Of a stretch of DNA of 64,000 nt, positions 14,709 through 45,396 are shown piece after piece. The position numbers were made by a program, and so were the translations under genes. Under the pieces are notes generated by a model. That model was not told the DNA's origin. It saw only the letters and a program-made list of their open reading frames with translations, and did no database searches. This DNA is from Flavobacteriales bacterium 33_180_T64 (GTDB lineage: Bacteria; Bacteroidota; Bacteroidia; Flavobacteriales; Flavobacteriaceae): the NCBI GenBank assembly GCA_002162685.1, contig MAAQ01000022.1, forward strand, positions 1-64,000, in the 5' to 3' direction. The number at the start of each line of letters is the position of its first letter. Position 1 is the first letter of the stretch.

Positions 14709-16217
14709 TTATCGATTTTTAGTTGGTATTACTATCGTTTGTATTGCTTGAGCTCTTATTTTAATATTGACATGACTCTCCTTAAGATTTAGAGTAAAAT
14801 TCTTAGCTACTTTTCCTTCATTAAAAATGACGACTGCTATAGAATTATCAAGGTTTCTTGCAGCTACTACCATAAGGTCTTCATCTGGGTTTTCAACATC
14901 AATAACTACAGCTCCTGGTCGTATATATTTACTGAAATGCACCATCGTATAATAAATTGGCGTGAAATACACTTCATCTGAATCTGGATCTACAATAATT
15001 GGAGCTACACACCAATTTTTAAACCAATTAGGTCCACCTTGCCTATCCAAAACCATGTTCCAATCCACCCAGCCGTCTACCCAATTATTAAGGCAACCAA
15101 TAATATCTCTTGCATATCGATTTACAGGTGCATATTTTGGGTGCAGATACTTTTCATCTTCGGCAGCCCAATCCCAACCCCAATCTGTAGCTTCTTTAGA
15201 CCAATACCATGTATCATCCTGCCATTTTGGAACTTCAGAATCAACACAACCTTCTGTTTCAATTAAATATTTGTTTGGTGCTTTATTATGAGCATATTGT
15301 AAAGCTTCAGGAAAAATCTCATAGGTGCTTTCATACCAATGAATTGCTGTTCCGTCATAATACTTAGAAGATGCTTTATCTTTATACATCACATCAACCC
15401 ATTCTTTTAGGCCTGCTCTATTTTGATCATAACCCAAAATTATTTTATCGCCTTTACCATCGGCTTCTAATTTTGGTCCTAAATGGTGTTGAACAAAATC
15501 TGTCATTTCTTCTGGTGAATAATGCATGCTTTCCCAGTTATTCCCATTTCCATGAGGTTCATTTTCTACTGTAAACCCCCAAATATCTATGCCTTCAGCT
15601 TTATAAGCATCTACATATTTTGAAAAGAATAAAGCCCAAGTATCGTAATACTTTGGGAGTAGTTTTCCGCCAACCCAATCTTTATTATCTTTCATCCATG
15701 GTGGTGCAGTCCAAGGAGATGCGAAAATCTCAAATCCATCTTCAGATACAGCCATTGCGTCTTTAATCATAGGGATTAAATCATCCATATCATCTTCAAT
15801 TGTAAAATGATCTAAATTCATATCACCTTCAACAGGCGCATATGAATATTGACTTAAAGAGAAATCGCATGAATTCATATGCGTTCTGGTTAACGAATAA
15901 TTAGCACCTTCTTTACTGAAATACGCTTTTAAAATTGTGTCTCTATTTTTTTTACTAAGCTTATTTAATAAATAGGCTGAGGATTCTGTAAATGCTCCTC
16001 CAAATCCTGTAATCGTTTGAAGCTTTTTATCTACTAAAATTTTTAAAACAACCGAAGAATCTACTGGTGAAAATTCGGTAATTCTCGTCAGTTTGTTTCC
16101 ACTAGCAGATGTTTCATATACTTCAACTTCTAGCAATTTTTCTTGCTTTTGTTTTTCATTACAGCTTAGCATAAGTAGAATAAAAAGTGGATAAATTAAA
16201 TAGCTTAGTGTTTTCAT
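14709..16217 (-). CDS. GH30-family beta-glucanase lipoprotein (probable endo-beta-1,6-glucanase)
   Basis: A 502-aa lipoprotein (lipobox MLSCN, Cys19). It has the GH30 barrel plus flanking beta-domain: ITGFGGAFTESSA near residue 70, SPWTAPPWMKDN near 168, acid/base Glu220 in GFTVENEPHGN, nucleophile Glu near 322 in LIETEGC, and a C-terminal beta-sandwich (VVAARNLDNSIAVVIFNEG). GH30 includes glucosylceramidases and beta-1,6-glucanases. Between GH16, GH17 and phosphorylase genes, removal of beta-1,6 side chains of laminarin is the likely task. It should act at the outer membrane surface or in the periplasm. It starts 27 bp after the GH17 lipoprotein gene and ends 1 bp before the permease fusion. 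Confidence 0.88.
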   Translation of the reverse strand: MKTLSYLIYPLFILLMLSCNEKQKQEKLLEVEVYETSASGNKLTRITEFSPVDSSVVLKILVDKKLQTITGFGGAFTESSAYLLNKLSKKNRDTILKAYFSKEGANYSLTRTHMNSCDFSLSQYSYAPVEGDMNLDHFTIEDDMDDLIPMIKDAMAVSEDGFEIFASPWTAPPWMKDNKDWVGGKLLPKYYDTWALFFSKYVDAYKAEGIDIWGFTVENEPHGNGNNWESMHYSPEEMTDFVQHHLGPKLEADGKGDKIILGYDQNRAGLKEWVDVMYKDKASSKYYDGTAIHWYESTYEIFPEALQYAHNKAPNKYLIETEGCVDSEVPKWQDDTWYWSKEATDWGWDWAAEDEKYLHPKYAPVNRYARDIIGCLNNWVDGWVDWNMVLDRQGGPNWFKNWCVAPIIVDPDSDEVYFTPIYYTMVHFSKYIRPGAVVIDVENPDEDLMVVAARNLDNSIAVVIFNEGKVAKNFTLNLKESHVNIKIRAQAIQTIVIPTKNR

Positions 16218-16244: not shown

Positions 16245-17534
16245 TCAATTTGCCATGATTTCGTTTAGTGTAGGCGGTACCAATACACCGTCTAGAAGGA
16301 TATCTTTATCACCATTATAAGTTTTTATTATTGGGTGTCTATTTCTTGTTAACCCATTAAAAACTCCTTTATCTACAAAATCCCAGATTGGATATTTTGC
16401 CTTTCCATCTAAAGTAAAAAGCCCAAAATGATTTTCAGAACCATTAGGATGATGCGCATCTTTCCATTGTTCGTTAAATGCTTCAAAGTAAAAACATGAA
16501 ATCCCTTCTTTGTTAGTCCATTCACGCATCAGCTTATAAAACAAACCTTGTTTATACTCATCTGTTGCTCTAGATCCATTAGCGCCATAAAAGCCTTTAG
16601 ATGTTGTTGCCCAACCTGTCTCACCAATATGAATAGGCTTATTCACTCCAATACTTTTCATGTAATTGCCAACACTATCATATTGGCGTTTTGAAAAATC
16701 AACAGCACGCTTCATCGCAGCATCTATTTTTTCAATAGTTGTAAGGTGTTCTTCTGCTTCAGGAATACCCCAAAACTCAGGGTTGTAATGCGAATTATGA
16801 AATGGATAAGTATGCATCGAGATATAATCGACGGTTTTCGCTAATTGTTCTAAATCTATTGTATGGTACTGGCGTTCTCCTCCTCCCCAAGACGCAAAAT
16901 CATCCGAACTCGTAATCCATAAGTCTTTTGGCAGTTCACCTTCTTGCTTTAAATCTTGCAGATGCGATACCCATTTTAAAATCACTTGAGGTTGTACATA
17001 ATAACTTGTAGCCCATTTCACCATAGCTTCATTCCCTACAGCGATCACTTTTACAATATCTGGATATTGCTTTGCTAAAGTCACAGCTCTTTCTATTTCG
17101 GCTGCATTATTTGGACTTTCCACATCATGATTTACAGGTTGATCTGTCCATGCATTAAGACAATCTATCCAAGCTCCTAACATCACATACATTTCAAAAT
17201 TTGGATCTTCTTTTTTTAGTTCATCAATAGCTTTTAAAACATTTGAAGCATGAGGTAAAGGCAATTGTACATTATAGGTTCTCAAAACCTTTATACCCAT
17301 TGCTGACAATAATTTCATATCCTCTTTTAGCTCTAGTATAGAAGGTTGACTATCTCTAGATTTTTCACGATAACCACCATAAGATATCGCCAAATAATTA
17401 GGATTTCCGAGTATATCTTTAGCCACAACTTGTTTAGGTATTTGCATTTCTTTTTTTGCTTTTGGATTTTGATTGCAAGACAACATGATCATTGAAATTA
17501 TCACAACTATTATTATGTTTATGTTCAATTTCAT
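16245..17534 (-). CDS. GH17-family lipoprotein
   Basis: A 429-aa lipoprotein (lipobox MLSCN, Cys20) with a GH17-type barrel from about 40 to 400. The donor is Glu169 in VIAVGNEAM and the nucleophile Glu305 in IHIGETGWAT. It begins with a strand typical of the family (YLAISYGGYREKSRDSQP, then MGIKVLRTYNV). It is more distant from the two cytoplasmic GH17 domains than they are from each other, so this is a separate lineage. Location outside the cytoplasm implies action on laminarin or its larger fragments, as exo-hydrolase, endo-hydrolase or transglycosidase. The next gene of the operon (GH30) is 27 bp downstream and the phosphorylase gene ends 12 bp upstream. Confidence 0.85.
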   Translation of the reverse strand: MKLNINIIIVVIISMIMLSCNQNPKAKKEMQIPKQVVAKDILGNPNYLAISYGGYREKSRDSQPSILELKEDMKLLSAMGIKVLRTYNVQLPLPHASNVLKAIDELKKEDPNFEMYVMLGAWIDCLNAWTDQPVNHDVESPNNAAEIERAVTLAKQYPDIVKVIAVGNEAMVKWATSYYVQPQVILKWVSHLQDLKQEGELPKDLWITSSDDFASWGGGERQYHTIDLEQLAKTVDYISMHTYPFHNSHYNPEFWGIPEAEEHLTTIEKIDAAMKRAVDFSKRQYDSVGNYMKSIGVNKPIHIGETGWATTSKGFYGANGSRATDEYKQGLFYKLMREWTNKEGISCFYFEAFNEQWKDAHHPNGSENHFGLFTLDGKAKYPIWDFVDKGVFNGLTRNRHPIIKTYNGDKDILLDGVLVPPTLNEIMAN

Positions 17535-17546: not shown

Positions 17547-20500
17547 TTATTTTAACATCGTTTTATTAACACTAACACTAATTTTATCAATTAAACCAGA
17601 GCGCGTAAACACTTCATTACTTATGTCTTTGTCTAGAGTTAAACTTTTAATATTTAAAATTGAACTATCTGCATAGGTTACAGTTATACTATTTTCATCG
17701 CCTATATTATATATTATTGGAACTTGACAATAGGTAAAAGCTAATGTGCCTTTTTCTAAATTGATGTCTTTCCAATTTTTATTAATATCTACATAGTTGT
17801 AGGTTTTTTTGTTTACTAAAAACTCATCTATTCTTAATAAGCTTGGGTTAAATGTCAATTGTCCAGCTTTAACAAATGCGCCCAACTCGCCTATACGTGA
17901 CAGAATATCTTCTTTTACTTGTCCGGTCATACCAGGCTGCTGCGCTCCTTTCCCGCCAGGTGTATGTGAATAAGGATCAGTTGGGAAAGCACCATATAGT
18001 TTTGGCGTTTTATGGGCGCCAATACCTGCATTGATTTCGTAATAATGTTCTAACAGTTTCCCAATCGTTTCATCATTTTCTTTATCGGTAATTGCTTTTA
18101 AACAGCTTTCTTGTACTGCTAATTGCAATTTTGAAACCATATGCCAATAAATAGAACCTAAACCTTCATAACCGTAAAAGGTTCCTGATCGTCCTGTAAA
18201 AGCTTTATGATTAAACACCTCTTCAAAAGTTTGAAGTAATTGTTCGGTTTCTTTTTGAGCAAGCGCTCTATATTTTGTATTGTCAAGACTAACTAAAGCT
18301 GCTTTAAGACTATTAGCATTATTAAAATTTCCATTGAAATGAAATGCACCATTAATATCCTTTGTAACAATTTGAGTATTGCCATCCTTAACTAATTGCT
18401 TTATTAATTCTGAATTTTCAATAGCTTTTTTTGGAATTGTATTCTTCACCATAAAGCGTGGTAATTCTTTATTTGGATACAACAAATAACTGTACTGATC
18501 TGCTCTAAACAACTTACTTTGTTTCATAGCATCAAGCACCTTAAGCGCTTCCAAAGAATTTAAATACCCAGAACTTAAAGTTGCAACCTGACCTTCAAGC
18601 ATTTCATCTAAATATGAAATAGAAATTTCAGACTCATTAACAACCGACATTAAATTATAAGCGTGATATAAATTATCATTTCGCTTGTTTGCATCAATCG
18701 TATGCTCTAAATAGTCTAATGTAGTTGTAATAAAACCCTGTAATGCTTTAAATGAAAGCTCTACTTTATTTCCTGAAAATGCTTTGTTATAAATTGTCGT
18801 TCTAAATAGACTTCCAGCTTCACCTAAACCGTCAAGAATAACTTTTCTATCTCGATCAGAAATTGCTCCAGGCAACAAGTTTTTATTGTCATCTAAAGTT
18901 TTGCTAATACTATTAAAAAAGATATATAACTCTTCTGAAATTGGAATACTTTCACCAGTTTTGTTTGGTACAATAGTTTTAAAGAACTCTAGGAAACGTC
19001 TTAAATAATTAAGTGTCACCATAGAAACACCATTTCCTACTAAAGCATTATTGGCATCATTCCATTCTGGTCTTTGCGTATTTAACCAAATTCCTCCTTC
19101 AGGAATAAAATTGGACACTTTTGCTAAAACAGTCGCTAATATTTTTTCAATAAAATTAACCTTACAAATAAAGAAGTTTTGATCTCTTAATAAAGCCCCA
19201 TCTGCGCCTAGCTCTAATCGCTTTTCACGAATTTTTTCATCTAAGGCTTCATCAAATTCGATGGTGTCTTTAGGGTTACTTAGTGTTTCTTGATAAGTTT
19301 TGATTTTATAAGGTACATTTGCGTACACAAATAAATCCTGATTAAAATAGCTCGTTAACTTACCAGGATTATGATTTTCAATAAATTCTAAAAACTTAAG
19401 CAAGTAAATAATTTGATGATCTCCCCAATATCCAATATATGACCAAGGATCATCTGGTTCTATAGTTTCCCAATCAAAACCGCTTTTTGTTACACGATAC
19501 GGATTATAGCCATCAAAAGTCGTTGCATTCAAGAATTTATGGATCATACTTTCTATAAACTCAGGATATGCATGTGCTAAAGCTTCCCAATTTTGGAAAA
19601 TATCACGCCAATTTCCTTCGTAATCCAAAATTTTAGAACCGTCAACTTCACTACGTGTATTGATTGAAAATTTATTCCATGGTCTACTAGGATCTCCATG
19701 TCGTCGACTAAACTTTAAAGGCATGTATTCTAAGCATAAACGTCTAAAGTTTTTATCATCGCTTTTGTAGGCTATAGCTTTTAATTCTGAAATTGAAAAT
19801 ACTTCAGGTAAGTTCTTTAAAATAGCATTAGCTTTTGAAAAAACTTTTACATTAGCCTTAGATAGATAGTTCGTGAAATCCCATTTTTCGATTGTATAAT
19901 TATCATCAAAAATTCCACCACGCATAATATTAAATAAGGTATTTGCAAAATGCCTAGTATCGTTTTGCTTGTCTGCTGTAAGTTGTATACCATCTGCAGA
20001 CGCATTAAGCTCTATTAAACGTTTTGTACCATTATCAATATCATTTTGAACCGCCTCTGCTAATTGCTTGTCATTATGTATTCGGTGTATAATTTCTGAA
20101 ATTGAGTTATGATCTTGATTTACATTACCAATTAACGCCCATTCGCTTTTTTCATTTGCAGGCAATTCGATATCAGTATTAATAAAATAAGCGCCTTTTT
20201 CAGCTCTAATATCTATTTCTTCTATAATATTATTTGTTCTTCGGAAATCTTGCAATTGAAGAGACGACAGTAAATACTTAGGATTTTCTAGACCAATAGA
20301 CCAGGCTATATTAGCTTTTAAAGCTTCGCTTGGTTCTGCTTTATCAACAATAATAGCGCTCAAAGCATAAATACCTAAACCAGCTTCTTTTTCAAGTTCA
20401 TTCTTTTTATAAGCATCTACAAGATTACTAACTCGGTTTTGAGTGTCTGATGGCACGCCATATGGTACAATATTCTGAAAACCATCGAGTATAGATATGC

Positions 20501-21023
20501 TGATTTTGGAAGTAGAATTATTTAACAATGTCGACTTTTTTACAAAGCCAAATTCGTCACTTGAATTCCATTGATATCGAAACGTTAATTTTAAATCATA
20601 ATTAACTTCTTCAAAAATCACTTTATTTCCGTAGGCGTTTTTATAAATATTTCTTGACGTCTGATATAAACCCTCTTGGCGAATTGAAAACGGTTCCCAT
20701 AGTTGTTTTGAATTGACCCAAAAGATAGACTTACTTCCTGTTATTTCAGCAGATTCTGTGATTTTATCATCAGTGTAATATGGGAAAAATGCAAACTCAC
20801 TATTTTGTCGCCCAGCAGATAAACCACCATTACTGGAAACGAACATCCAGTGATTAGAATCACTTACAATGCTCATAAAAAACGAACGCATCTCATCACA
20901 ATTAGAAATCTTAAAGTAAGATTCGTTATCAATCACCACCTGCTCCATTGATGTAACGCCCGTTAATGTTTCGTTTATACTTTTCTCTATCATAAGTGAC
21001 TCCGTAAACTTAGTATTCAACAT
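17547..21023 (-). CDS. Probable beta-1,3-glucan phosphorylase, GH149-like
   Basis: A 1158-aa cytoplasmic protein with no signal peptide. It opens with features of GH94-related phosphorylases (SSNGGLSAGRQNSEFAFFPYYTDDKI is recognisable near residues 63-88) and continues into a large (alpha/alpha)6-barrel region, with the acidic stretch RSEVDGSKILDYEGNWRD near 460, GYWGDHQII near 530 and a phosphate-site-like segment HTPGGKGAQQPGMTGQ near 1030. Length and architecture fit GH149 (about 1100 aa), established for Euglena and bacterial beta-1,3-oligoglucan phosphorylases; GH161 is the main alternative. It would convert imported beta-1,3-oligoglucosides and phosphate into glucose-1-phosphate, saving ATP. 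It lies inside the cluster, preceded by two hairpins in the 85-bp gap after the GH16 gene. Confidence 0.75.
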   Translation of the reverse strand: MLNTKFTESLMIEKSINETLTGVTSMEQVVIDNESYFKISNCDEMRSFFMSIVSDSNHWMFVSSNGGLSAGRQNSEFAFFPYYTDDKITESAEITGSKSIFWVNSKQLWEPFSIRQEGLYQTSRNIYKNAYGNKVIFEEVNYDLKLTFRYQWNSSDEFGFVKKSTLLNNSTSKISISILDGFQNIVPYGVPSDTQNRVSNLVDAYKKNELEKEAGLGIYALSAIIVDKAEPSEALKANIAWSIGLENPKYLLSSLQLQDFRRTNNIIEEIDIRAEKGAYFINTDIELPANEKSEWALIGNVNQDHNSISEIIHRIHNDKQLAEAVQNDIDNGTKRLIELNASADGIQLTADKQNDTRHFANTLFNIMRGGIFDDNYTIEKWDFTNYLSKANVKVFSKANAILKNLPEVFSISELKAIAYKSDDKNFRRLCLEYMPLKFSRRHGDPSRPWNKFSINTRSEVDGSKILDYEGNWRDIFQNWEALAHAYPEFIESMIHKFLNATTFDGYNPYRVTKSGFDWETIEPDDPWSYIGYWGDHQIIYLLKFLEFIENHNPGKLTSYFNQDLFVYANVPYKIKTYQETLSNPKDTIEFDEALDEKIREKRLELGADGALLRDQNFFICKVNFIEKILATVLAKVSNFIPEGGIWLNTQRPEWNDANNALVGNGVSMVTLNYLRRFLEFFKTIVPNKTGESIPISEELYIFFNSISKTLDDNKNLLPGAISDRDRKVILDGLGEAGSLFRTTIYNKAFSGNKVELSFKALQGFITTTLDYLEHTIDANKRNDNLYHAYNLMSVVNESEISISYLDEMLEGQVATLSSGYLNSLEALKVLDAMKQSKLFRADQYSYLLYPNKELPRFMVKNTIPKKAIENSELIKQLVKDGNTQIVTKDINGAFHFNGNFNNANSLKAALVSLDNTKYRALAQKETEQLLQTFEEVFNHKAFTGRSGTFYGYEGLGSIYWHMVSKLQLAVQESCLKAITDKENDETIGKLLEHYYEINAGIGAHKTPKLYGAFPTDPYSHTPGGKGAQQPGMTGQVKEDILSRIGELGAFVKAGQLTFNPSLLRIDEFLVNKKTYNYVDINKNWKDINLEKGTLAFTYCQVPIIYNIGDENSITVTYADSSILNIKSLTLDKDISNEVFTRSGLIDKISVSVNKTMLK

Positions 21024-21108: not shown

Positions 21109-21939
21109 TTATTGATACACTCTTACGTAATCTACCAACATGGTTTGTGGAAATACAGTTGTATTATTTGGTGAACCTGGGTAGTCTCCACCTACTGCAA
21201 CATTCATAATAATATAAAATGGTTGATTAAACACCCATTCGCCAGTGACATCTTCTGGTGTGATTTGATTATACAACACATCATCTACATAATAATTAAT
21301 GTAATCTTCTCCCCATTCTATACCAAAAATGTGAAACCCTGTATCAAAGCGGTCATTTTCTAATTCATAAGATTTAGTGATACCTTCACTTGCAAAATAT
21401 CCTGGACCGTGAACGCTACCACTGACTAAAGTAGGTTCTTGTCCACGGTTTTCCATGATATCAATCTCACCGACTTGCGGCCAACTAACTTCAGAATTTG
21501 CTCCTAACATCCAAAATGCAGGCCAAAGTCCCTGTCCCCAAGGCAATTGAATTCTAGCTTCGATACGACCATATTTTTGCTCGAATAAATCTTTAGTTAA
21601 TAGTCTAGCAGACGTATAACCAGAACCTTCATATGATTCTTTAATGATGTTAAATTTTAGAACACCATCTTCAATATTGATATTCTCTGAACGATCGGTA
21701 TAATATTGCAGTTCATTATTTCCCCAACCATTACTACCTGTTCCTATATCATAACCCCAAACACTACTGTCTGGTGCTCCATCAATATCAAATTCTTGTG
21801 ATAATGTGAGATTATTATATGTGGTTACAGTTTGAGTTTCATCTGTTGAACAACTGATTGAAACCAGCAATACTATAGTAAGTAAAGACGTAAATAATAT
21901 CTTTAATGTTCCAATTTTATATTTATATGTAAAATTCAT
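21109..21939 (-). CDS. GH16-family endo-beta-1,3-glucanase (laminarinase) lipoprotein
   Basis: A 276-aa lipoprotein (lipobox SISC, Cys30). The GH16 beta-sandwich spans 45-276 and carries the family signature EIDIME, with nucleophile Glu158, Asp160 and acid/base Glu163. The extra residue (EIDIME rather than EIDIE) is typical of bacterial laminarinases of subfamily GH16_3, as are GNNELQYYTDR, LPWGQGLWPAFWMLG and the closing MLVDYVRVYQ. It should cut laminarin backbones at the cell surface, generating oligosaccharides for the rest of the pathway. It lies 30 bp downstream of the glycan-binding lipoprotein gene in the operon. Confidence 0.93.
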   Translation of the reverse strand: MNFTYKYKIGTLKILFTSLLTIVLLVSISCSTDETQTVTTYNNLTLSQEFDIDGAPDSSVWGYDIGTGSNGWGNNELQYYTDRSENINIEDGVLKFNIIKESYEGSGYTSARLLTKDLFEQKYGRIEARIQLPWGQGLWPAFWMLGANSEVSWPQVGEIDIMENRGQEPTLVSGSVHGPGYFASEGITKSYELENDRFDTGFHIFGIEWGEDYINYYVDDVLYNQITPEDVTGEWVFNQPFYIIMNVAVGGDYPGSPNNTTVFPQTMLVDYVRVYQ

Positions 21940-21969: not shown

Positions 21970-23874
21970 TTAGTTATGAAAATACATGTTATCAATAAAC
22001 ACATCTGTAACCTCAAAAGGCTGACCCACTAGGATATATTGAGCCAAATTTGATTGTCCCGTTAATCCGATAAAATCGGTTAGAGGAATATCTAAACTCA
22101 CCCATTCGCCTTGGTTAGGGTTAGCGATACTAATTTCATACTCTGAATCATCACCACCACCAAAAGCATCATCTGGCCCAAAATCAACTAATTTCACATT
22201 AAATGTTGTAACATCTGGAGACCAGATATCTAAATGAAAATGCGTCATACTTGAAGCATCAATAGTAGCAGAGGTAGTTTCTATACCGACAAAACCAAGG
22301 TCTGTATATTTTTTTGCTGCTTGCCCATCAACCATTACATCCTCAAAAACTGTTGCTGCTGCAGACCAATCTGTTCGCCATGTATCTACAGTAACATTTG
22401 TATACGCATCGCTAAACATTGAAATCACATTTGCTGCTGGATCTGTTGGTGTAGGAGCTGCATTTCCTGGTGATGTTGGCACGCCCCAGAAATACACATT
22501 GTCTAAATAAAAATTTGTGAAATTAGTTCCATTGTTTTCATAAATAATAAGTCCTAGATTATTTTTATTAGCTATCGTAAGTGAAACATCAAAGCTACTC
22601 CAAGCGCCTTCAGTTAAATCGGAACTAACGAGTGTCGTAGACATATCAGAGTCATCGCCTCCACCTTCAACACCATCATTACCAAAATCTCTAATGGTAA
22701 TTTTTAATTGTGTTCCAGGATCTAATGTTTCAGGAATAAATACATCGAAATGAGCAAATGACATTTCAGAAGCATTTACAGTTGGATTAGAAAAACTAGT
22801 CCCAACAAAATTGAAATCCGTATAGTTTAGTACATTATCACCATTAACCACAAAATCATCAGAAAGTGTCGTTTGATATGGTTCCCAAAAACCATTATAA
22901 AAATCTACTGGGACATTCGTATAAGTATCACTAAAGATAGAAATTACGTTAGCTGAATCTTGAGTTGGAATTGGTGCTTGAGTAAAGTCTCCTAAGGAGA
23001 TAAGTGTTAATGAACCTTCAGCATCAACACCATCTAAAGTGGCAGTAATTATTGTAGTTCCTGCCGAAATTATCGTTATAACTCCTAATTCATCAATAGT
23101 GGCAACACTAGGATTAGAAGAGCTAAAAACAAAATAACTTGGTGCAGCAATTACTGTTACATCTTGACCTGAAGCCAAATTGAATGTTTCTGTCAACCCA
23201 GTTACACTAGCACTAGCACCAATAAAACTTTGTTGAACAAGATCTTCTCCATTAAGAATTGCTGGCCTTGGTTGCGCAACAGTGCCTAATTTTTCAAATT
23301 TAACTTCATCAAACCAAAATGAAAAACCAGTCCCATTTTCAGGTCCTTCAGCATACCAAAGCATACCGCGTTCTTGAGTTAACTTTGAAGGATCTGGTAT
23401 TGGTATGATATATTTTTTCCAATTAGTAGTTAATTGAATCGTTCCAGAAATTTGAGCTTGAAACTTATTTTCTCCAAAGTCTTGTCCGAAACCAATATCA
23501 TTGATTGTTCTTGCTTCAGATCCTTTTGCCCAAAAAGTTAAGGCATCAAAATCAGATAAATCTCTTCCGCTAGCTGTGCGAAAGATAGCACCAGAGTATG
23601 CTCCATCAGGATCTCCTACATTAGGCACATCAAATCTCATTGCCGCTGCACTTCCATCGTAAGTTGTTTCAGTATCTACTGTAAACGCTTCAAAAAATGA
23701 GTCTCCAAAAGGAAAGTAATCTAAGCCTGCACTAAAACCATCTATGAATATATCCCCATTTTGTGGAAAACCAGCTTCTACAGCATCATCTGAAATATCT
23801 CTATCACAACCTAATATAGCAATACATGCCAATAGGAATGTAATTTTTGAATTAATAAAATTTACGTTTTTCAT
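21970..23874 (-). CDS. Multidomain surface glycan-binding lipoprotein
   Basis: A 634-aa lipoprotein (lipobox ILGC, Cys23) without catalytic motifs. In order: a jelly-roll, CBM-like domain (about 30-200; DALTFWAKGSEARTINDIGFG, FWFDEVKFEKLG), a bacterial Ig-like BIG2 domain (about 205-290; SSNPSVATIDELGVITIISAG), and two repeats of a beta-sandwich (about 300-465 and 470-634), each starting with NVIS.FSD.YTNV and containing DFG.D...GGGDDS. The repeats match the second sandwich of the T9SS protein at 6.4-7.8 kb. The position between the outer-membrane fusion protein and the laminarinase suggests the role of SusE/F-like surface glycan-binding proteins. Laminarin as ligand is inferred from context. 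Only 11 bp separate it from the upstream gene. Confidence 0.83.
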   Translation of the reverse strand: MKNVNFINSKITFLLACIAILGCDRDISDDAVEAGFPQNGDIFIDGFSAGLDYFPFGDSFFEAFTVDTETTYDGSAAAMRFDVPNVGDPDGAYSGAIFRTASGRDLSDFDALTFWAKGSEARTINDIGFGQDFGENKFQAQISGTIQLTTNWKKYIIPIPDPSKLTQERGMLWYAEGPENGTGFSFWFDEVKFEKLGTVAQPRPAILNGEDLVQQSFIGASASVTGLTETFNLASGQDVTVIAAPSYFVFSSSNPSVATIDELGVITIISAGTTIITATLDGVDAEGSLTLISLGDFTQAPIPTQDSANVISIFSDTYTNVPVDFYNGFWEPYQTTLSDDFVVNGDNVLNYTDFNFVGTSFSNPTVNASEMSFAHFDVFIPETLDPGTQLKITIRDFGNDGVEGGGDDSDMSTTLVSSDLTEGAWSSFDVSLTIANKNNLGLIIYENNGTNFTNFYLDNVYFWGVPTSPGNAAPTPTDPAANVISMFSDAYTNVTVDTWRTDWSAAATVFEDVMVDGQAAKKYTDLGFVGIETTSATIDASSMTHFHLDIWSPDVTTFNVKLVDFGPDDAFGGGDDSEYEISIANPNQGEWVSLDIPLTDFIGLTGQSNLAQYILVGQPFEVTDVFIDNMYFHN

Positions 23875-23885: not shown

Positions 23886-26800
23886 TTACTTTCCAATATT
23901 AATATGTATATAGGTTCTAATTTCCCATTCGTTACCATCATCAAATCCAACAGTACTTACTGTTGGTTCTCCGAATTCTGGAGCTTGATTTGGAAGGTAG
24001 CGTGGTGAATACTCATTAAGAGATCTCCATGTACCACGTATTCCAATTTTTGTATTTGGTAAAACAAACCAATCTGGTTTTCCTAATGTTGTAGAGATGT
24101 CTAGCATTAACTGCACCGGATAAGTAAGGTTGAAATCTCTATGATAATCAAATGGTCCCCAGTCATTTATTTTAACCGATTGTGTGATTTTAAATTTTCT
24201 ATAAATAGCTCTAATATCACCACCAAAACGGTCAATTAAACGTGCATCACTACCATTAGCTTGCCCATTCCCAGCATAAAAATTAGCTATAAACCCTAAA
24301 TCTGGACTTACTTTTGATACAACCCTTGAATGCGCTTCCCATAAATCTTCAGCAGGCGCCGAATTAGGAAATGCAAACGACGTACGGTTACCTAAGAACC
24401 CAATCGCTGCATCCTGAGCTGTAGGGTGATGACGAAATACAAACCCTAAATTCATAGCAAATTTTGCGTCTTCTGCTCTATCATTATCCCATTCATACAT
24501 CCATGTTCCTGGTGTAGGATCATAGGTTAATAAAAATTCACCAGCTGTTGTTTCTCTATTTGCTCTTACAGCAAATGGATCATCTTGAATATTTCTAAGC
24601 CTTCCTGGAGCTTGAACATCATTAGGCATCGCATCTACAATTGGTTTTTGCCATAAAAAGTTAGGTGCTATTTGAAAATTACCAAATGAGTATGTAAATC
24701 CTGTTAAAACATTAGTTTGGTTTCCGCTACCACTATCTTTTAGTCTCCAACCTGTGAATGTTTTTGTATAATCTCCACCACCATTAGCAACTAATCCCAT
24801 GGCTGCACCTTGAGCGTACCAGTTAAATCGTCCTTTTTGATATGTTATTTTAGCTTTCCCTCCCCAATTATCATTTGAATTCACACGATCTACGAGAATA
24901 TTATAATTTCCTGTAGTTCCTCCATCAACAACTTGAAATGTTCTTCCGTTTAAAGGGTCACCTGCCCATATACCACCAATTTCAATACCTAGATTTCCAA
25001 ATTTTCTTTTAATATGTAGTGTTGCTCTTCTCGTTTTAGGCAATGGAACTGCAATTGAAGTGACAGCCTCACCTACATCGTCAATATCTTCATGATAAAC
25101 ACCTGTAACGTCATATTTTCCAATTGTACGACTATATTTTAATAGAACCGCTGGATTTGCTCCCCACCATAGTTGAGGTCCAAATGCTGCTTTTAAGCCT
25201 TTTAAACCTTTCTTACCATCAATTTCAATACCCATGGTTTCCCCATTATAAATATCTAAGTTCTCTCCATAATTTGCTTCTGGATATAACCCAAAGAAAT
25301 CACCTTCATAACCCCAATGGTAATGACCAGTTCTATAGAATCCTCTTAAATCAAAATCTTTAGCATTCCATTCAAACGACGCATTATAAACTTGAACACG
25401 GTTATTATCTGACAAATCAATAGTTCCATCTTCGGTTTCTACGGTTACACTTCTTCCTCTGTTTTCATAGAAAATTTCATCAATAGGGTTTTCTGCTACA
25501 TTTCCTAGCACATTAAAATTAACATTAGCACGCATATTAGAGGTTGGATTCCCTTCTACACCTATAAAATAAGATTGCATATGATCAAACCCGAGTTGAT
25601 TTGGGTACACATTTTCGTCTGGATTTGCAGTATCTGGTGTTGTAATTAATGATCCTCCAGTGTTGTATGTTGTAAACTCTGCTCTTAAATTGCTTAATCT
25701 AATTTTATTAGAACTGCCACCAGAAAGCGCTGCTTTGTCGCCTCTAGCTCTTAAGACAGCATCCATTAATTGAATATTCATAAAATGATTTCCAATAAAA
25801 TCCTGAGTGATTCCTTCATCATAAGGATTTAATTGATGAACTTCTTTAAGCGCATAATAAGCAGCACGAGGATACAAGTCATATAATCCACGTGCATTAG
25901 TTGGTCCTTTAGCACAGATTCCAAACCACTCTTCATTCATGTTATTTTCGTTGCCTTCTAAGTCTAAGCTATAACCTCCATTAGACCAAGACGCATTATT
26001 ATCATGTACATCTAAATTTTTAGTTTGCCCGAATTTCCACCAACCATCACTAAATTGAAATGTAAAACCACCTAAAGAATTTTCAGATTTTCCTAATCCA
26101 GCAGCATTCTCATAAATATCTTTCCAGTTATTTACCATATAATAGGCTTGAGATTTTTGGTCTTCTTGATTTTCTATCGCATTAAATGCATCTGCACCAA
26201 ACTCTGTAAATAGGATTGGCTTATTCAATTTTTCTTTTACTGTTTGAAAAGCATCTGTAAAAGTTGCTCCACGATACATATTTGTTCCAAAGATGTCTAT
26301 GTCTTTGCACTCTTCAGCAATAATATCTATAAATAGTACATCTCCATTACAAATAGCCATAGGGTGTGTGGTATCAATCGCTTTCATTGCAAGAACAGCC
26401 TCATTAAAAAGCTTATACATTGCTCTTGCTCTAACCGTTGATTTTCTATCTTCTAATGGTATATCTTCGGTTTCAGCTCCTCCCCAGAAAAGCCCATAAT
26501 TATTTTCGTTACCTAATAAAAACAATAAGAGTCCTGGAGTATTTTTATAGTCTTCAACCATTGTAGTTACTTCGGATAATAGCAACTCACGAGTAAGCTC
26601 ATCTGAATATTCTGTATTTGGAATCCATGCACCATTTAAAGTCAAACCATAACGACCAAATGAATGATTAAGCATTGTATAGATGCCATAATTTTCGTAG
26701 ATATACTGAATCCATTTTGGTTGAATGCCTGTATATTGTCTTATAACATTTACACCCATGTTTTTTAACAACCCCATTTCTGCATCGAGAGCCGCTTTAA

Positions 26801-27011
26801 TCGTGTCATCTGATTGTTTCCATAAGCTATATGAATAATTTGTGCCAATTGGAATATAATCCCAATTCATTCCATTAATCATAAAATCTTTCCCGTCAAC
26901 TTTTAATCTCATCCCCTCGCTACTGTTGTCAACAGAAACTTTATTTGCTTGTGCAAAAACTGAAAATGTTACTAAGAAAAGAAATAGTCCAAGAATATTA
27001 TTCTTCATCAT
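23886..27011 (-). CDS. Glycoside hydrolase (clan GH-A, GH2-like barrel) fused to an outer-membrane beta-barrel
   Basis: A 1041-aa protein with a signal peptide (SVFAQ, cleavage near residue 20). Residues 25-400 form a TIM barrel resembling the catalytic domain of GH2, with acid/base Glu169 in LLLFLLGNENN, nucleophile Glu270 in ILFTEFGADAF, and NGMNWDYIPIGTNYS at the entrance. The sandwich domains that precede a true GH2 barrel are missing. Residues from about 405 to the end alternate polar and hydrophobic residues in many amphipathic strands separated by short turns and long loops (ATLHIKRKFGNLGIEIGGIW, GGKAKITYQKGRFNWYAQGA, TNVLTGFTYSFGNFQIAPNF), closing with EWEIRTYIHINIGK, as in porins. 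It is the first gene of the glucan operon. Surface or periplasmic orientation of the barrel and exact substrate are not known. Confidence 0.82.
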   Translation of the reverse strand: MMKNNILGLFLFLVTFSVFAQANKVSVDNSSEGMRLKVDGKDFMINGMNWDYIPIGTNYSYSLWKQSDDTIKAALDAEMGLLKNMGVNVIRQYTGIQPKWIQYIYENYGIYTMLNHSFGRYGLTLNGAWIPNTEYSDELTRELLLSEVTTMVEDYKNTPGLLLFLLGNENNYGLFWGGAETEDIPLEDRKSTVRARAMYKLFNEAVLAMKAIDTTHPMAICNGDVLFIDIIAEECKDIDIFGTNMYRGATFTDAFQTVKEKLNKPILFTEFGADAFNAIENQEDQKSQAYYMVNNWKDIYENAAGLGKSENSLGGFTFQFSDGWWKFGQTKNLDVHDNNASWSNGGYSLDLEGNENNMNEEWFGICAKGPTNARGLYDLYPRAAYYALKEVHQLNPYDEGITQDFIGNHFMNIQLMDAVLRARGDKAALSGGSSNKIRLSNLRAEFTTYNTGGSLITTPDTANPDENVYPNQLGFDHMQSYFIGVEGNPTSNMRANVNFNVLGNVAENPIDEIFYENRGRSVTVETEDGTIDLSDNNRVQVYNASFEWNAKDFDLRGFYRTGHYHWGYEGDFFGLYPEANYGENLDIYNGETMGIEIDGKKGLKGLKAAFGPQLWWGANPAVLLKYSRTIGKYDVTGVYHEDIDDVGEAVTSIAVPLPKTRRATLHIKRKFGNLGIEIGGIWAGDPLNGRTFQVVDGGTTGNYNILVDRVNSNDNWGGKAKITYQKGRFNWYAQGAAMGLVANGGGDYTKTFTGWRLKDSGSGNQTNVLTGFTYSFGNFQIAPNFLWQKPIVDAMPNDVQAPGRLRNIQDDPFAVRANRETTAGEFLLTYDPTPGTWMYEWDNDRAEDAKFAMNLGFVFRHHPTAQDAAIGFLGNRTSFAFPNSAPAEDLWEAHSRVVSKVSPDLGFIANFYAGNGQANGSDARLIDRFGGDIRAIYRKFKITQSVKINDWGPFDYHRDFNLTYPVQLMLDISTTLGKPDWFVLPNTKIGIRGTWRSLNEYSPRYLPNQAPEFGEPTVSTVGFDDGNEWEIRTYIHINIGK

Positions 27012-27337: not shown

Positions 27338-30145
27338 TTAAATTTCCAAAATGTAATTCGTTAAACTAGATTCGTGTGGTAAGTCCATTTTTTTACGAAG
27401 TCTATAACGTTTAACCTCGACACTTCTAGAAGAAATATTTAGCAATGGTGCGATCTCTTTTGATGATAGATTTAACCTTAGATAAGCACAAAGTCTTAAA
27501 TCGTTTGGTGTTAATTTTGGGTGCTTAGCTTTTACTTTTTTCAGAAAGTCTTTATCAGCATTATTAAATGCTTCTTGAAAGAATTTCCAGTCATCAGTAT
27601 TATTTAAGTTTTTATCAATAATCTTAATAACTGGTTTAAGTTCATTATTTTGATTAACATTCTTTAATTCTTCTTTAATACTATTTAAGAATTCATTTTT
27701 CTTAATAAGGCTCATCGTAGAAATTGCTAACTCACGACTTTTATTATCAACATCTTTTTTAAGCTGTTCATTTCTTAAAGTCATTAACTCTTGGTCATTT
27801 TCTAATTGCCTGAGTTCTAACTCTCTTTCGGCATCAAATAGTAGTTTTTCTTCTTGTCGTTTATACTTTCTTTTATAAATAGTATGCATAAGGAATGAAA
27901 AAAGAAGCACTGTTAGTATATATATAAAAACCATAAGATTTGAGATATACCAAGGTTTATCAATCTTAAATGAATATGCTACAACATTATTTGTTATTTG
28001 GCTACCTACTCTACCACGAACACTTAAGGTATAATCACCATGAGATAAATTTTTAAATAACTCTGTTGAAGATTTAGACCATTCACTCCATTTATCATAA
28101 CTTCCTTCTAGTTTATATTGATATTCAGCCTCTAAATATTTATCAAATTCTGCTATGCTGTATGTGATTTCAAAATTATTATTCTTATTATGAAATTCTT
28201 CTGAAGCGGAAGGCTCTAAAATTCTTTTTTCAGAATCGATTCCGAAATTATATATGGAATTAATTTCAATAGTATAAGATTGGTTTTTCATCTTATCAAG
28301 ATCAATAATAATATAACCAGATGACGTTCCTAAGAGGTGTTTTTGGTTTTCAATTGGAGAAATATTTTCATACCCAGTGACACTTTTTCGCAAATTACTA
28401 GACAAAGGAATTGTATTAATTTTTGGAATATCGCTTAATATGCCTGGAGAAATGTATTTAATATTTCTAACAGAAAAACTCCAAAGTTTGTTTGGAGTAT
28501 TCACTAGCTTTCCTGATACATAATTTAATGAATCATAAGCTTGACTTAAAATAGTATCTTTTTTAAACGCATTTATTACTGTATCGTAAGCATAAATACC
28601 CTCTTTATAAGCGTATAATATTTTAGAGTCATATTTTAACAAACTTGAATGCAAACCTTTTTTTACAGAGTTTTCTTTGCTTGCCTTTAATACTTTGCTA
28701 TATGTATTATCTATATCTAATTTAAAAACACCTTTATACTCATGACTAACAAAAACTTGATTTTCGTCAATTATTTCAAAAAACTTAGAAGATATATTGA
28801 ATCCTTCAATTTTATTTCTCAAGGACCAACTATCATTCGATTTCTCTAAAACACTTAAACCATTATAATTACCTTGAAGTAGTAAATTTTTATTATCAGG
28901 GATTTGCTTAATTCCCCAAGTTCCTTCAATACTAGAAATCTGTTGAGCATTTTTACCATTAATAACAAAGGTTCCTAAATCATGCCCACAAAAAAGCGTA
29001 GAATTATAAACTTCCAAACACCACACTTGTCCTTTAGTACCTTCGACAAACTCAAATTCATTATTAGAATTCATAGCCCTAACAAACAAACCTTGATTAG
29101 TTCCTATATAAAGCATATCATTATACACTTTTGATGTATGAACAGCTCCTAAGTGCCCCATTTTATCATCATATTCCTTAAATGGAGACGAACTATTAAT
29201 ACAATTGACACCATTATCTAATCCTAACCAAATATTTTCGTCTGCATCTTCAAAAACTGAAAGCACAGTATTATTAGACAAGCCATTATTTTGGTTGAGT
29301 ACATAATCTATTTCTCCATCAATTGTAATATTAATAATACCTTTAGAAATTGTACCAATAGCAAAACTACCATCTTTAAGCCTAATACTACTATATACGG
29401 TTAAACTAGAAAGAATTTCATTCGCAGGAATATCCCATTTAGAAAGCAATCCATTATTAAAAACGAAAAATCCTTTTTGGTTTGTTTGAATAATTAAATG
29501 CCTATCAATATTAAATATATTAATGATTCTATTAGACTTCAAAACCTCATCATCAGAAAATAATATTTCTTTACCATTTTCAATTTTAAAAACACCTTGA
29601 TTTAACCTTTGAAAATATATCGTATTATCAACTTTAATCATTTTAGTTAAAGTTGTTTCAGAATCTATAATATGGAATAATTTTGTGGTTGTACTATAGC
29701 TATAAATTCTATTTAAAGACTGAAATACAATAAACCCATCTAGTGCGATAATATTCCAAATCTGTTCGTCTTCAATCATAGAAGATTGTAGGTTTTTGGA
29801 TAGCGACGTATATATTAATTCATTAAAGTTGTTACGTTCCCAATACCCAAATTCCATATAACACCCTGTATAAATACGATTCCCTACGGTTTTAACAGAT
29901 CGTAATATAGTTTGATTAGGAGTCGCATATAACTTCCATAATGCGCCATTAAATTCTAATAATCCAATATTATTAGCAACATAAATATACTTGCTGTCAG
30001 ATTGAGAGATAGCCCAATTTTGATTTTCGGCTTTGTATATTTCAGGAGTAAAAACTTGAATTGGAGAAATCTCTTGCGCAGTAGAGGTTAAGCTAATCAA
30101 TAGACAAACAAATAAGTTAAATAGCTTTATTTTTTTATAGCGCAT
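27338..30145 (-). CDS. SusR-like membrane-spanning regulator (propeller, Y_Y_Y, LuxR-type HTH)
   Basis: A 935-aa one-component sensor. A signal segment is followed by a periplasmic beta-propeller of two-component-regulator (Reg_prop) repeats at about 25-640 (GLSNNTVLSVFEDADENIWLGL split over blades), a Y_Y_Y domain at about 670-735 (YKLEGSYDKWSEW, LSHGDYTLSVRGR), one transmembrane helix near 745-768, a charged coiled coil to about 830 and a LuxR-type helix-turn-helix in the last 60 residues (LNLSSKEIAPLLNISSRSVEVKRYRLRKKM). There is no histidine kinase or receiver domain, so signal passes directly from periplasm to DNA, as proposed for SusR. Placement directly upstream of the glucan operon makes it the prime regulator candidate, sensing beta-glucan oligosaccharides by inference. 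Confidence 0.88.
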   Translation of the reverse strand: MRYKKIKLFNLFVCLLISLTSTAQEISPIQVFTPEIYKAENQNWAISQSDSKYIYVANNIGLLEFNGALWKLYATPNQTILRSVKTVGNRIYTGCYMEFGYWERNNFNELIYTSLSKNLQSSMIEDEQIWNIIALDGFIVFQSLNRIYSYSTTTKLFHIIDSETTLTKMIKVDNTIYFQRLNQGVFKIENGKEILFSDDEVLKSNRIINIFNIDRHLIIQTNQKGFFVFNNGLLSKWDIPANEILSSLTVYSSIRLKDGSFAIGTISKGIINITIDGEIDYVLNQNNGLSNNTVLSVFEDADENIWLGLDNGVNCINSSSPFKEYDDKMGHLGAVHTSKVYNDMLYIGTNQGLFVRAMNSNNEFEFVEGTKGQVWCLEVYNSTLFCGHDLGTFVINGKNAQQISSIEGTWGIKQIPDNKNLLLQGNYNGLSVLEKSNDSWSLRNKIEGFNISSKFFEIIDENQVFVSHEYKGVFKLDIDNTYSKVLKASKENSVKKGLHSSLLKYDSKILYAYKEGIYAYDTVINAFKKDTILSQAYDSLNYVSGKLVNTPNKLWSFSVRNIKYISPGILSDIPKINTIPLSSNLRKSVTGYENISPIENQKHLLGTSSGYIIIDLDKMKNQSYTIEINSIYNFGIDSEKRILEPSASEEFHNKNNNFEITYSIAEFDKYLEAEYQYKLEGSYDKWSEWSKSSTELFKNLSHGDYTLSVRGRVGSQITNNVVAYSFKIDKPWYISNLMVFIYILTVLLFSFLMHTIYKRKYKRQEEKLLFDAERELELRQLENDQELMTLRNEQLKKDVDNKSRELAISTMSLIKKNEFLNSIKEELKNVNQNNELKPVIKIIDKNLNNTDDWKFFQEAFNNADKDFLKKVKAKHPKLTPNDLRLCAYLRLNLSSKEIAPLLNISSRSVEVKRYRLRKKMDLPHESSLTNYILEI

Positions 30146-33660: not shown

Positions 33661-35412
33661 CTATTCTATCGTTTGCTTTACACTTCCACAAGTTAACATC
33701 GCATTACCAAAGTATGGGTTAATTACTTTTTCCTCTCTGCTTAACCAATATGCACCATTATTATTATCTGCCATAGGACAAAATTGACTATACACTTTTT
33801 CATTTATTCCAAAGGTTTCAACAGCACTAATTAAATCCATCGACAAATGCTTAAAGTAATCCCTATGCAACTTTATATCAGGTGTTTTTGAAATAGAATT
33901 AACCGAATATTTAATCCCCTTTTCAAATGCCATCCATTTATTATGAGCCTCAAGATTATCTAATAATTTCATTTCGACTTTGCCTAAACTATTAAGCATA
34001 GCATCTGCATACTTTATTACTGATTTAGGATCATCTTTCACTAAGGCATCTTTTAATTCGATATAATTATTGAACACCATTTTTAACTGCTCTTGAAATT
34101 TGGCAGCTACTATTACTCTTTTACTTTCAGTCGTCTTTAATATTTCCATTCCAAAATGTCCTTCATGTCCTGTCATTGTTTTGCTGCCAGTTTTATTCAT
34201 CATAGATTTTTTACCTTGTAATTGTGCAGATGCATCTACTGTAAATGTCCCATTGGTTACAATTTCGTCTCCCTTTTTGAGTCCTTCAAGAACTTCATAT
34301 TGTTCTTCTAATTGTTTTCCTAATGTTATTTCTTGCATTTCAAAAATTGGTTCATTAGGACTTGTTTTTAAATATACAACAGAGCGTTTTCCTGTCCATA
34401 ATACTGCTGACGAAGGAATCATTAAACGTTCCCCATTAAAAGATAGCGTATTTTCAACATATCCTTCTACAAACATGCCCGTTTTAAACTCGCGGTTTTT
34501 ATTATTTAAGACGACTCTAAGCTTAACCGTTCTTGTTGCTAAATTAAATGTAGGGTCGATAAAATCTACTTTATTTTTAAATTCCTTATTTGGATAAGCA
34601 TTAGTAATCACAGTAATATCTTGTCCTTTTTTGAATAATTCAATCTGATTTTCATAGACATCAAACAAGGCCCAAACTGTATTTAAGTTAGCGATTTTTA
34701 ATAAGGCTTGTCCTTGTTTCACATAATCGCCTTGCTCAACCAATTTCTCGGAAACTGTTCCTGAAACAGTTGCATATATAGGAACATTTTGTTTTACTAT
34801 TCCTGAAGCTTCTATTTGATTGATTTGGTTTTCAGAAATTTTCCAAAGTTTTAATTTATTCCGAACAGCTTTGTATAATGCAGGCTGTGATTCTTTTAAA
34901 GATGACGTCGTAATTAATTCTTGTTGCGCTGCAAATAATTCAGGAGAATAAATGGTTGCTAACAATTGTCCTTTTCGTACCTCTTCTCCTACAGAGTTAA
35001 TACTTAAACGCTCAATTCTTCCTGAAAAATAACTCGCTTGTACGACGTTAGCTTCTTCATTTTCTGAAACCTTTCCAGATAACTTAATAGCAGTATTTTT
35101 GTTTGTATTTTTTCCAACAAAAGAAGTTTGTATATTCGCTAATGCCATAGCGTTATTTGTTAGTTTAAATTCATTTGCATTAAGTCCGTCTGCACCAGAT
35201 TCGGCAGGAATTAAATCCATACCGCAAATTGGACAATCGCCAGCTTCAGGCAACATAATTTGTGGATGCATAGAACACGTCCACAGTTGATTTTTTTCGA
35301 TTGATTCTGCATGATTATGTTCTGCTTTTTCATTGATTGAATTTCCAAAAAACAACCAACCTAAAAGTAAACCAACTGCTAAAACCCCTGAATAGATTAT
35401 ATATTTTTTCAT
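33661..35412 (-). CDS. cusB: CusB-like RND efflux adaptor with heavy-metal-binding and DUF3347 domains
   Basis: A 583-aa periplasmic membrane-fusion protein. It has an N-terminal membrane anchor, a heavy-metal-binding YHS-like domain near 49-78 (WTCSMHPQIMLPEAGDCPIC plus GMDLIP), then the usual beta-barrel, lipoyl and hairpin region (VVQASYFSGRIERLSI, PIYATVSGTVSEKLVEQGDY, NTVWALFDVYENQIELFKKG). A DUF3347 domain makes up the last 150 residues, ending FCPMADNNNGAYWLSREE and TCGSVKQ. It should link the CusA-like pump to the CusC-like channel and deliver Cu(I)/Ag(I). The C-terminal domain is the same as the free DUF3347 protein encoded 4 kb upstream. It is the last gene of the operon. Confidence 0.9.
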   Translation of the reverse strand: MKKYIIYSGVLAVGLLLGWLFFGNSINEKAEHNHAESIEKNQLWTCSMHPQIMLPEAGDCPICGMDLIPAESGADGLNANEFKLTNNAMALANIQTSFVGKNTNKNTAIKLSGKVSENEEANVVQASYFSGRIERLSINSVGEEVRKGQLLATIYSPELFAAQQELITTSSLKESQPALYKAVRNKLKLWKISENQINQIEASGIVKQNVPIYATVSGTVSEKLVEQGDYVKQGQALLKIANLNTVWALFDVYENQIELFKKGQDITVITNAYPNKEFKNKVDFIDPTFNLATRTVKLRVVLNNKNREFKTGMFVEGYVENTLSFNGERLMIPSSAVLWTGKRSVVYLKTSPNEPIFEMQEITLGKQLEEQYEVLEGLKKGDEIVTNGTFTVDASAQLQGKKSMMNKTGSKTMTGHEGHFGMEILKTTESKRVIVAAKFQEQLKMVFNNYIELKDALVKDDPKSVIKYADAMLNSLGKVEMKLLDNLEAHNKWMAFEKGIKYSVNSISKTPDIKLHRDYFKHLSMDLISAVETFGINEKVYSQFCPMADNNNGAYWLSREEKVINPYFGNAMLTCGSVKQTIE

Positions 35413-35414
35413 TT

Positions 35415-36125
35415 CTATTTATTTTTTCTTTTTAATAATTTTCTAATTGATGGTGACGATGTAAACCCTAGTAAAAACCCACTTAATACAGTCATCAAAC
35501 CTAATAGAGAAAAGACTCTTAATACGATTGTATTAAAGTTATCTCTACCTTCATAATCCATTGTATGTGTCATCCATAGAAAATCAAACCAGCGCCAACT
35601 TCGATGTCTAACTGTTTGAAATTTTCCATCTTTAATAGACACATAAGCTTTAAGGGTTTCATCTGCTTGATAGGATATAACATAGGCAGGTAACAGCTTT
35701 TCTCTATATTCGTGATGCTTTCCCGTTTCATTAATCTGTTCAATAGTTTCTACTACTAAGCCACTCTTCATATTGAGTTTCGCTATATACAAAGCCTCTT
35801 TTTTGGTGATATTAGTTTTTAAACTTCCGTCAATGGCATTGTATAATTGCTTTTTGTTAATCCAATAATAGGGCGAATTATTAATGTCTCTCAATTCAAT
35901 AGTATTGATACCGCCAGAAACATTATACTGTGATGGACTAATGAGATTACTAAATGCTTTAGGCTGATACTCTAAATTTTTAAAATGATCTCCATGAATA
36001 TCGTCAATATCTGTCCAACTAAAGTATAAACCACTTATAGTCCAAAACAAAAATTGAATTCCTAAAAACAAACCTAAATAACGATGTGTTTTTCTAATTT
36101 TTAATGCTGTATGCCTGTTTATCAT
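35415..36125 (-). CDS. PepSY-type membrane protein
   Basis: A 236-aa protein with an N-terminal membrane helix after HRYLGLFLGIQFLFWTISGLY (split as the helix near 15-36), a periplasmic PepSY-like region (KEALYIAKLNMKSGLVVETIEQ near 115-140; AYVISYQADETLKAYVS) and a C-terminal helix (VLRVFSLLGLMTVLSGFLLG). Conserved His residues at helix ends (TAL.IRKTHRYLG, DFLWMTHTMDY) resemble those of PepSY-TM proteins linked to iron or copper redox at the membrane. The function is unproven. It is 1 bp from the upstream DUF2911 gene, firmly in the metal operon. Confidence 0.8.
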   Translation of the reverse strand: MINRHTALKIRKTHRYLGLFLGIQFLFWTISGLYFSWTDIDDIHGDHFKNLEYQPKAFSNLISPSQYNVSGGINTIELRDINNSPYYWINKKQLYNAIDGSLKTNITKKEALYIAKLNMKSGLVVETIEQINETGKHHEYREKLLPAYVISYQADETLKAYVSIKDGKFQTVRHRSWRWFDFLWMTHTMDYEGRDNFNTIVLRVFSLLGLMTVLSGFLLGFTSSPSIRKLLKRKNK

Positions 36126-36126
36126 C

Positions 36127-36717: not shown

Positions 36718-36719
36718 AA

Positions 36720-39215: not shown

Positions 39216-39218
39216 CTT

Positions 39219-40328: not shown

Positions 40329-40338
40329 TTTTTTATTT

Positions 40339-45344: not shown

Positions 45345-45396
45345 TGATTTGTATTTTAAACAGTTAGACATAGGTATTTAAGAGAATACCAAATAC

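Follow-up and report, generated by a model that had tools for sequence, protein, structure and literature searches.

A laminarin-locus gene of Bacteroidota encodes a GH158-like glycosidase fused to a predicted outer-membrane β-barrel

Introduction

Laminarin is a major algal sugar store that Bacteroidota are generally held to take up by way of SusCD. In the present study we analysed a stretch of 64,000 nucleotides from Flavobacteriales bacterium 33_180_T64 (contig MAAQ01000022.1, positions 1 to 64,000; hereafter named the window), in which a gene at positions 23886–27011 joins a glycoside hydrolase (GH) to a predicted outer-membrane β-barrel within a β-1,3-glucan locus. Several described loci resemble it. 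According to the text of the original article, the Formosa B locus contains GH16, GH17A, GH30 and an MFS–GH17B fusion, and the three laminarin polysaccharide utilization loci (PULs) of this organism showed their strongest expression on laminarin (PMC6246565). The MFS–GH17B protein as described there, like the window's fusion, combines a transporter with a glucan hydrolase in a like kind of locus, and an MFS–GH17 fusion is also present in the window; it differs in being α-helical, in residing in the inner membrane and in belonging to another GH family (PMC6246565). Our fusion was itself present in L018, a metagenome-assembled genome titled Formosa sp. Hel1_33_131.

Two published labels may conceal the same protein. 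In the text on the Muricauda lutaonensis laminarin PUL, a 'GH2 β-glycosidase' is listed with other genes that precede GH17 on its upstream side (PMC13188888), and that on a North Sea bloom reports high expression of laminarin PULs denoted GH149-GH0-..., one variant 1 laminarin PUL being without susCD (PMC10108472). Both 'GH2' and 'GH0' are named beside GH149, GH16, GH17 and GH30, and, judged by their position in the locus, are probably homologues of the fusion, although the running text of these articles mentions no barrel half (PMC13188888, PMC10108472). Literature searches for such a fusion and for laminarin loci brought up no article whose consulted text describes a hydrolase joined to an outer-membrane barrel, PMC11345257, PMC6298971 and PMC11093988 included. 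For the hydrolase half, the nearest relatives are the GH158 endo-β-1,3-glucanases (BuGH158, 6pal; 9oro). The article text on BuGH158 describes an Ig-like domain where the fusion has its barrel, and reports that Asn136, Glu137 and Glu220 are essential, their replacement having abolished activity (PMC7157763).

For the barrel half, two known systems offer a comparison. SusCD with its surface glycan-binding proteins (SGBPs) likewise has an outer-membrane barrel that is constantly accompanied by a lipoprotein gene within a glycan locus, but in our protein no plug domain or SusC homology was found and the barrel carries a hydrolase. Type V autotransporters have a 12-strand barrel, a helix through the pore and a passenger outside, and they share with the fusion the arrangement of enzyme, helix and barrel. 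In the EstA type the enzyme also precedes a C-terminal barrel, whereas the fusion has a larger barrel, a short linker and an enzyme that is probably periplasmic.

Results

The fused gene (P0001) encodes 1041 amino acids and a stop in a single uninterrupted frame, as claimed in a preliminary description made from the sequence. The strand, unstated there, is minus, as it is for the neighbouring genes between 11407 and 30145 and the parts of the fusion located below: the frame runs from an ATG at 27011 to 23886, and the plus-strand reading of the same interval contains 67 stops. As read from the sequence, the protein starts with a signal peptide (approximately residues 1–20; 26952–27011) without a lipobox, followed by the glycosidase domain, a helix (residues 403–429), a linker of ~7 residues and a barrel of ~600 residues. 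A lipobox-like motif was found in only five of 80 fused homologues.

A contig scan for relatives of the fused gene matched at least 586 stretches, 580 of them encoding a relative, and the best 80 were kept as loci. Glycosidase and barrel shared one open frame in all 80 (69–80% identity), with the first residues missing from two (L048 and L059), which start at a contig end. We also searched 296 Bacteroidota genomes at a threshold of E≤0.001; 44 gave a match: the fusion was present in 28, in one of which a contig end cuts it, and the glycosidases of the other 16 were barrel-less, broken or remote. A single copy is present in the genome of the window itself. In genome G235 the fused gene (L118:1124–3222) contains in-frame stops and is divided into two pieces. 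The recurrence of the fusion in 80/80 kept loci and 28/296 genomes rules out a sequencing or assembly error joining two genes, a doubt raised in the preliminary description, and the frame is therefore no sequencing artefact. Together with the barrel analysis below, we regard the reality of the fusion and of its outer-membrane barrel as very well founded.

The glycosidase domain (residues 25–400; 25812–26939) was GH158/GH2-like by Pfam, Foldseek and profile searches. Pfam GH2_C matched residues 75–279 at 3.9e-7, with a second match below threshold. The top Foldseek rows were GH158 laminarinases (1.2e-11), followed by GH2 glucuronidases, with TM (template modelling) scores of ~0.5 over the target and 15–18% identity; a 24-row profile ranked BuGH158 (6pal) first (4.3e-10), another GH158 second (1.4e-9) and GH2 nearly equal (2.5e-9). 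Asn168, Glu169 and Glu270 were invariant across the 24 aligned rows, two of which are relatives of 31–32% identity, and fell on Asn136, Glu137 and Glu220 of BuGH158, as counted along the profile alignment. Glu169 (in GNEN; codon 26505–26507) is thus aligned as the predicted acid/base and Glu270 (in TEFG; codon 26202–26204) as the predicted nucleophile, both at the places given previously. Asn168–Glu169 and Glu270 each end a predicted strand (161–166 and 266–271), in keeping with clan GH-A, whose TIM barrel has the catalytic Glu pair behind strands 4 and 7 and an Asn ahead of the acid/base. The sandwich domains that precede the TIM barrel in GH2 are absent, and there is no space for them, as had been noticed before, since the first TIM-barrel elements start within ~70 N-terminal residues, signal peptide included. 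Fold and profile place the domain in clan GH-A, intermediate between GH158 and GH2 and slightly closer to GH158, and the uncertainty over its family expressed in the preliminary description was well placed.

The C-terminal half was predicted to be an outer-membrane β-barrel of ~24–26 strands (residues 437–1041; 23889–25703), with no family found. The earlier assignment of a membrane barrel thus stands, with a start near residue 437 rather than 405. AlphaFold2 modelling of residues 402–1041 (81 rows) gave ~26 long strands with a pLDDT (predicted local distance difference test) of 70.9 and a pTM (predicted TM-score) of 0.70; the whole-chain model was poor (pLDDT 65.7, pTM 0.46). The best 50 of 803 Foldseek rows were all outer-membrane barrels by title, among them TonB receptors, LptD, FimD, AlgE, OpdQ and a chain of the Mtr complex. 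These matches were weak (TM≤0.43, root mean square deviation 12–20 Å), so that they establish the fold class but leave the family unclear. The hydrophobicity difference between strand faces was 2.49, compared with 1.43±0.21 in shuffled sequences (0/2000 as high). In a structure-free scan for two-residue alternation, the barrel reached z values of 3.6–3.9, a SusC barrel used as a positive control 1.6–2.2, and the negative controls (glycosidase, SusD, GH16, lipoprotein, GH149, GH30, FG-GAP and OEP) −1.0 to 1.1. The secreted hydrolase fused to an outer-membrane barrel that had been proposed is thus what the predictions return.

No Pfam family matched the window's barrel at E≤1, and the best value in 30 members was 0.017 (two of them); NCBIfam gave 0.17 at best, and a PDB sequence search with a 30-row barrel profile returned nothing at E≤10. 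A plug or CarboxypepD_reg Pfam match was absent from the whole protein and from 30 barrels, and the fusion was missed by a SusC hidden Markov model (HMM) built in this analysis, arguing against a SusC-type TonB-dependent transporter. Single-sequence and 30-row profile searches found no free-standing barrel in the 296 genomes at E≤0.001; the barrel occurred in 30 of them, namely the 28 with the fusion and two with broken genes (G119 and G235). Porins usually end in an aromatic residue, and the porin-like end ascribed to the window's protein was not found: its last residue is Lys, and those of the other loci checked are Met, Ser or Lys.

Conservation within the barrel was concentrated on its inner face. 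Mean entropy over 30 rows was 0.86 bits for lumen-facing and 1.34 bits for lipid-facing residues, a difference matched by none of 5000 random face choices, and invariant strand residues made up 37/143 of the former and 15/145 of the latter. The outward loops S5–S6, S7–S8 and S23–S24 were nearly fixed (0.17–0.29 bits), with S15–S16 at 0.58. As a whole, barrel and glycosidase were about equally conserved (mean entropy 0.84 compared with 0.76 bits, 51 rows).

Junction lengths gave an indication of the side on which the enzyme lies. They alternate along the barrel, the 13 odd (outward) junctions totalling 254 residues and the 12 even (inward) ones 60. In known barrels the long loops face outward; the first strand should therefore start in the periplasm, and the glycosidase likewise. 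The helical stretch 403–429 (25725–25805) apparently forms the end of the GH domain, because its sequence resembles the tail of barrel-less relatives. We therefore consider that the glycosidase probably sits at the periplasmic mouth and not on the surface; from that inner side it would cut incoming material instead of feeding the pore from outside.

The genes around the fusion supported the glucan locus named in the preliminary description. Downstream and on the same strand follow a 634-residue predicted lipoprotein (21970–23874), which has Big_2 and CBM_11 matches below the cut-off and is the constant neighbour of the barrel; a GH16 with a lipoprotein-like N terminus, a candidate endo-β-1,3-glucanase (21109–21939); a GH149 β-1,3-glucan phosphorylase in which no signal peptide was seen (17547–21023; 1783.7 bits against a cut-off of 1150); a GH17 (16245–17534) and a GH30 (14709–16217), both with lipoprotein-like N termini; the MFS–GH17 fusion (12341–14707); and another GH17 (11407–12339). 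The gaps are 11, 30 and 85 bases from the fused gene to GH149 and 12, 27, 1 and 1 thereafter. Upstream lies a Y_Y_Y/LuxR-type regulator (27338–30145). This co-location of β-1,3-glucan enzymes identifies the fusion as a component of a laminarin PUL, and the architecture recurs in comparable loci. Among the 80 kept loci, some cut by contig ends, homologues of the lipoprotein were found in 80, GH16 in 75, the regulator in 61, GH149 in 57, GH17 in 49, GH30 in 39, SusD in 12 and SusC in 11. A strict lipobox pattern was present in 46/80 lipoproteins and, by eye, in the six inspected of the other 34, often followed by ERD or DRD and further acidic residues. This pattern resembles the signal by which flavobacterial lipoproteins are exported to the cell surface. 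In published loci the lipoprotein may correspond to the 'PKD' protein. The operon thus pairs an inner-membrane transporter–hydrolase fusion (12341–14707) with its outer-membrane counterpart, and near its end encodes a large FG-GAP/UnbV_ASPIC protein (8009–11305), a second one being encoded at 57591–60911 after a SusCD pair.

Searches with barrel-less relatives revealed numerous standalone glycosidases, with open frames mostly of 433–507 residues. We compared 22 standalone with 21 fused loci, chosen by hand: the lipoprotein was present in 0/22 of the former and 20/21 of the latter. Counted as lying within 1.5 kb downstream, it was found in 58/61 testable fused rows and 0/21 testable standalone rows, a count that excludes the window as well as rows with no lipoprotein and <1.4 kb behind the gene (two standalone, one fused). 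L036 was scored here as lacking the lipoprotein, though locus searches find it there, and the genome of L104 has a homologue upstream. GH149 lies beside most loci of both architectures, frequently together with GH17 and MFS. In three standalone loci (L112, L159 and L160) SusD and GH16 lie upstream, joined in two of the three by SusC; a divergent SusC-like gene (851–882 residues) accompanies standalone L170 and L173 and fused L183 and L187, and L162 has a SusC-like piece. One standalone glycosidase (L169:9156–10676) has an extra tail ending like a barrel strand, and GH149 in that locus is in three pieces.

Remnants of the barrel were detected by tblastn behind three standalone genes, L117, L168 and L173 (50, 58 and 33 residues; E values 1.6e-6, 1e-5 and 0.004). 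They correspond to the first residues of the barrel, and that of L117 lies behind a stop, directly before GH149; judged from these sequences, the barrel has therefore been lost there. The lipoprotein is also gone from all three loci and GH16 from L117 and L168, while L173 keeps GH16 on the opposite strand. A tree of 88 rows required seven changes between the two forms, at least four of them forced by starred branches. It was built by a quick method from 86 glycosidase and two outgroup rows, with 22 of loci L001–L080 and after dropping three rows that were too short; the outgroup branches are very long and the root is unsure. The rows next to this root are fused, which together with the three remnants disfavours a late gain of the barrel by all fused rows. 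The fused gene of L176 (9080–12370), the tree sister of the standalone clade of family f29, adjoins apparent sugar-nucleotide synthesis genes.

Next, we considered the relation to SusCD. Flanks of 9.8 kb or more on either side were available for 52 loci; in 42 of these, neither SusC nor SusD was found with phmmer and a derived HMM. A search for the SusD family PF07980 covered 60 genomes, 40 fused and 20 standalone (fused G304, G314, G319, G328 and G406 and standalone G306, G322 and G376 fell outside the sample). It found none in five of the 40 fused genomes (G066, G144, G051, G255 and G204; 99–100% complete), a result confined to PF07980, with no search made for further SusD families or for TonB receptors in the rest of these genomes. 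All five keep the fusion and a lipoprotein homologue, with MFS, GH16, GH30 or GH149, and no SusC match lay beside the fusion within the stretch examined. In G144 the lipoprotein homologue is upstream and weaker, and the fused gene of G204 is divided between the ends of two contigs. The window's genome has four PF07980 SusD copies, and all four tested genomes of its family have SusD.

Discussion

The reading we favour, with a rough probability of 0.58, is that the fusion acts with its lipoprotein as a partner to form a pore for laminari-oligosaccharides, beside or instead of SusCD, with the hydrolase at the inner mouth. The surface GH16 would cut laminarin, and the lipoprotein, encoded 11 bases downstream, would capture the glucan and hold its pieces at the pore, a service that SusC receives from SusD and SGBPs. 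The pieces would pass through the barrel and be cut as they emerge at the periplasmic mouth by the GH158-like hydrolase, fused ~7 residues from the first strand; cutting on emergence would thereby keep them from leaving. GH30 and GH17 would complete the degradation in the periplasm, the MFS–GH17 fusion would carry the products across the inner membrane, and GH149 would phosphorolyse them in the cytoplasm. A pore that couples cleavage to passage, as first suggested in the preliminary description, is plausible on this model.

Several results weigh against this reading. SusC and SusD occur together, always upstream, in 10 of the 52 loci with full flanks, which rules out strict replacement of SusCD as a general rule. 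PF07980 SusD was also missing from 4/20 standalone genomes, so the absence of SusD alone is no pointer to the barrel, and standalone L164, L166 and L169 have neither a barrel nor SusCD nearby (~9 kb upstream for SusCD). L176, a fused gene outside a laminarin locus, is truly without the lipoprotein. The independent contrasts for joint loss of barrel and lipoprotein were three for, none against and one tie (p 0.25), too few for joint loss to count as statistically proven. Within the barrel, several outward loops are variable, for example S1–S2 and S25–S26 (1.5–1.7 bits), mean entropy was equal for outward and inward junctions (0.81 bits each), and the lower entropy of the lumen face may be common to many barrels. 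Finally, face preference is absent from the first strand and the inward junction S18–S19 is 21 residues long, which leaves some doubt about the side on which the GH domain lies.

A stronger version, which is possible but which we hold only tentatively, is a TonB-independent 'catalytic porin'. Here the hydrolase would cap and gate a wide barrel at its periplasmic mouth and let through only glucan that it has bound and cut, making uptake one-way, and where SusD is absent the fusion and the lipoprotein would be the sole laminarin importer. If so, the pair would represent a second, unrelated solution to the problem that SusCD solves.

A barrel without any transport role, tethering a periplasmic hydrolase to the outer membrane or being plugged or sensory, with import by SusCD encoded elsewhere, appears unlikely to us. 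It would suit the SusD of the window's family, the SusCD upstream in 10/52 loci and the glycosidase-only relatives in otherwise similar loci, but it leaves aside the five fused genomes without PF07980 SusD, the constant lipoprotein neighbour and the near-invariance of some outward loops.

We likewise think it improbable that the barrel is an autotransporter-like anchor, with the glycosidase threaded outside to act as a surface laminarinase. The protein resembles type V autotransporters in that its enzyme precedes the C-terminal barrel, with a predicted helix leading into the first strand (403–422 in the barrel-only model). However, the sequence of this helix also stands at the C terminus of barrel-less relatives, and if the helix is part of the GH domain, the remaining linker of ~7 residues is too short to cross the pore. 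The ~26 predicted strands are about twice the number in autotransporters, the conserved parts of the barrel are lumen residues and some outward loops, and the loop lengths place the N terminus in the periplasm.

That residues 405–1041 form a soluble sandwich or solenoid, as the moderate AlphaFold2 confidence with its low-confidence loops, the low Foldseek TM-scores and the absence of a Pfam match might allow, is scarcely credible and is contradicted by the AlphaFold2 model, the barrels among the Foldseek rows, the controlled alternation scores and the short–long junction pattern.

A widespread barrel has thus apparently been masked by the labels 'GH2' and 'GH0'; it pairs with a lipoprotein and occurs in genomes without PF07980-detectable SusD. 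If the pore we favour does transport laminari-oligosaccharides, surveys that demand SusCD for laminarin loci miss part of the uptake, and, with passage through the outer membrane and hydrolysis united in one protein, their coupling is open to direct test.

Elsewhere in the window, a second sugar locus (46466–60911) contains MFS, GlcNAc 2-epimerase-like, GH3, AraC-type regulator, SusC, SusD and FG-GAP genes, and a heavy-metal efflux cluster (33661–45371) encodes CusB/HlyD-like, P-type ATPase, OEP and AcrB-type pump proteins.

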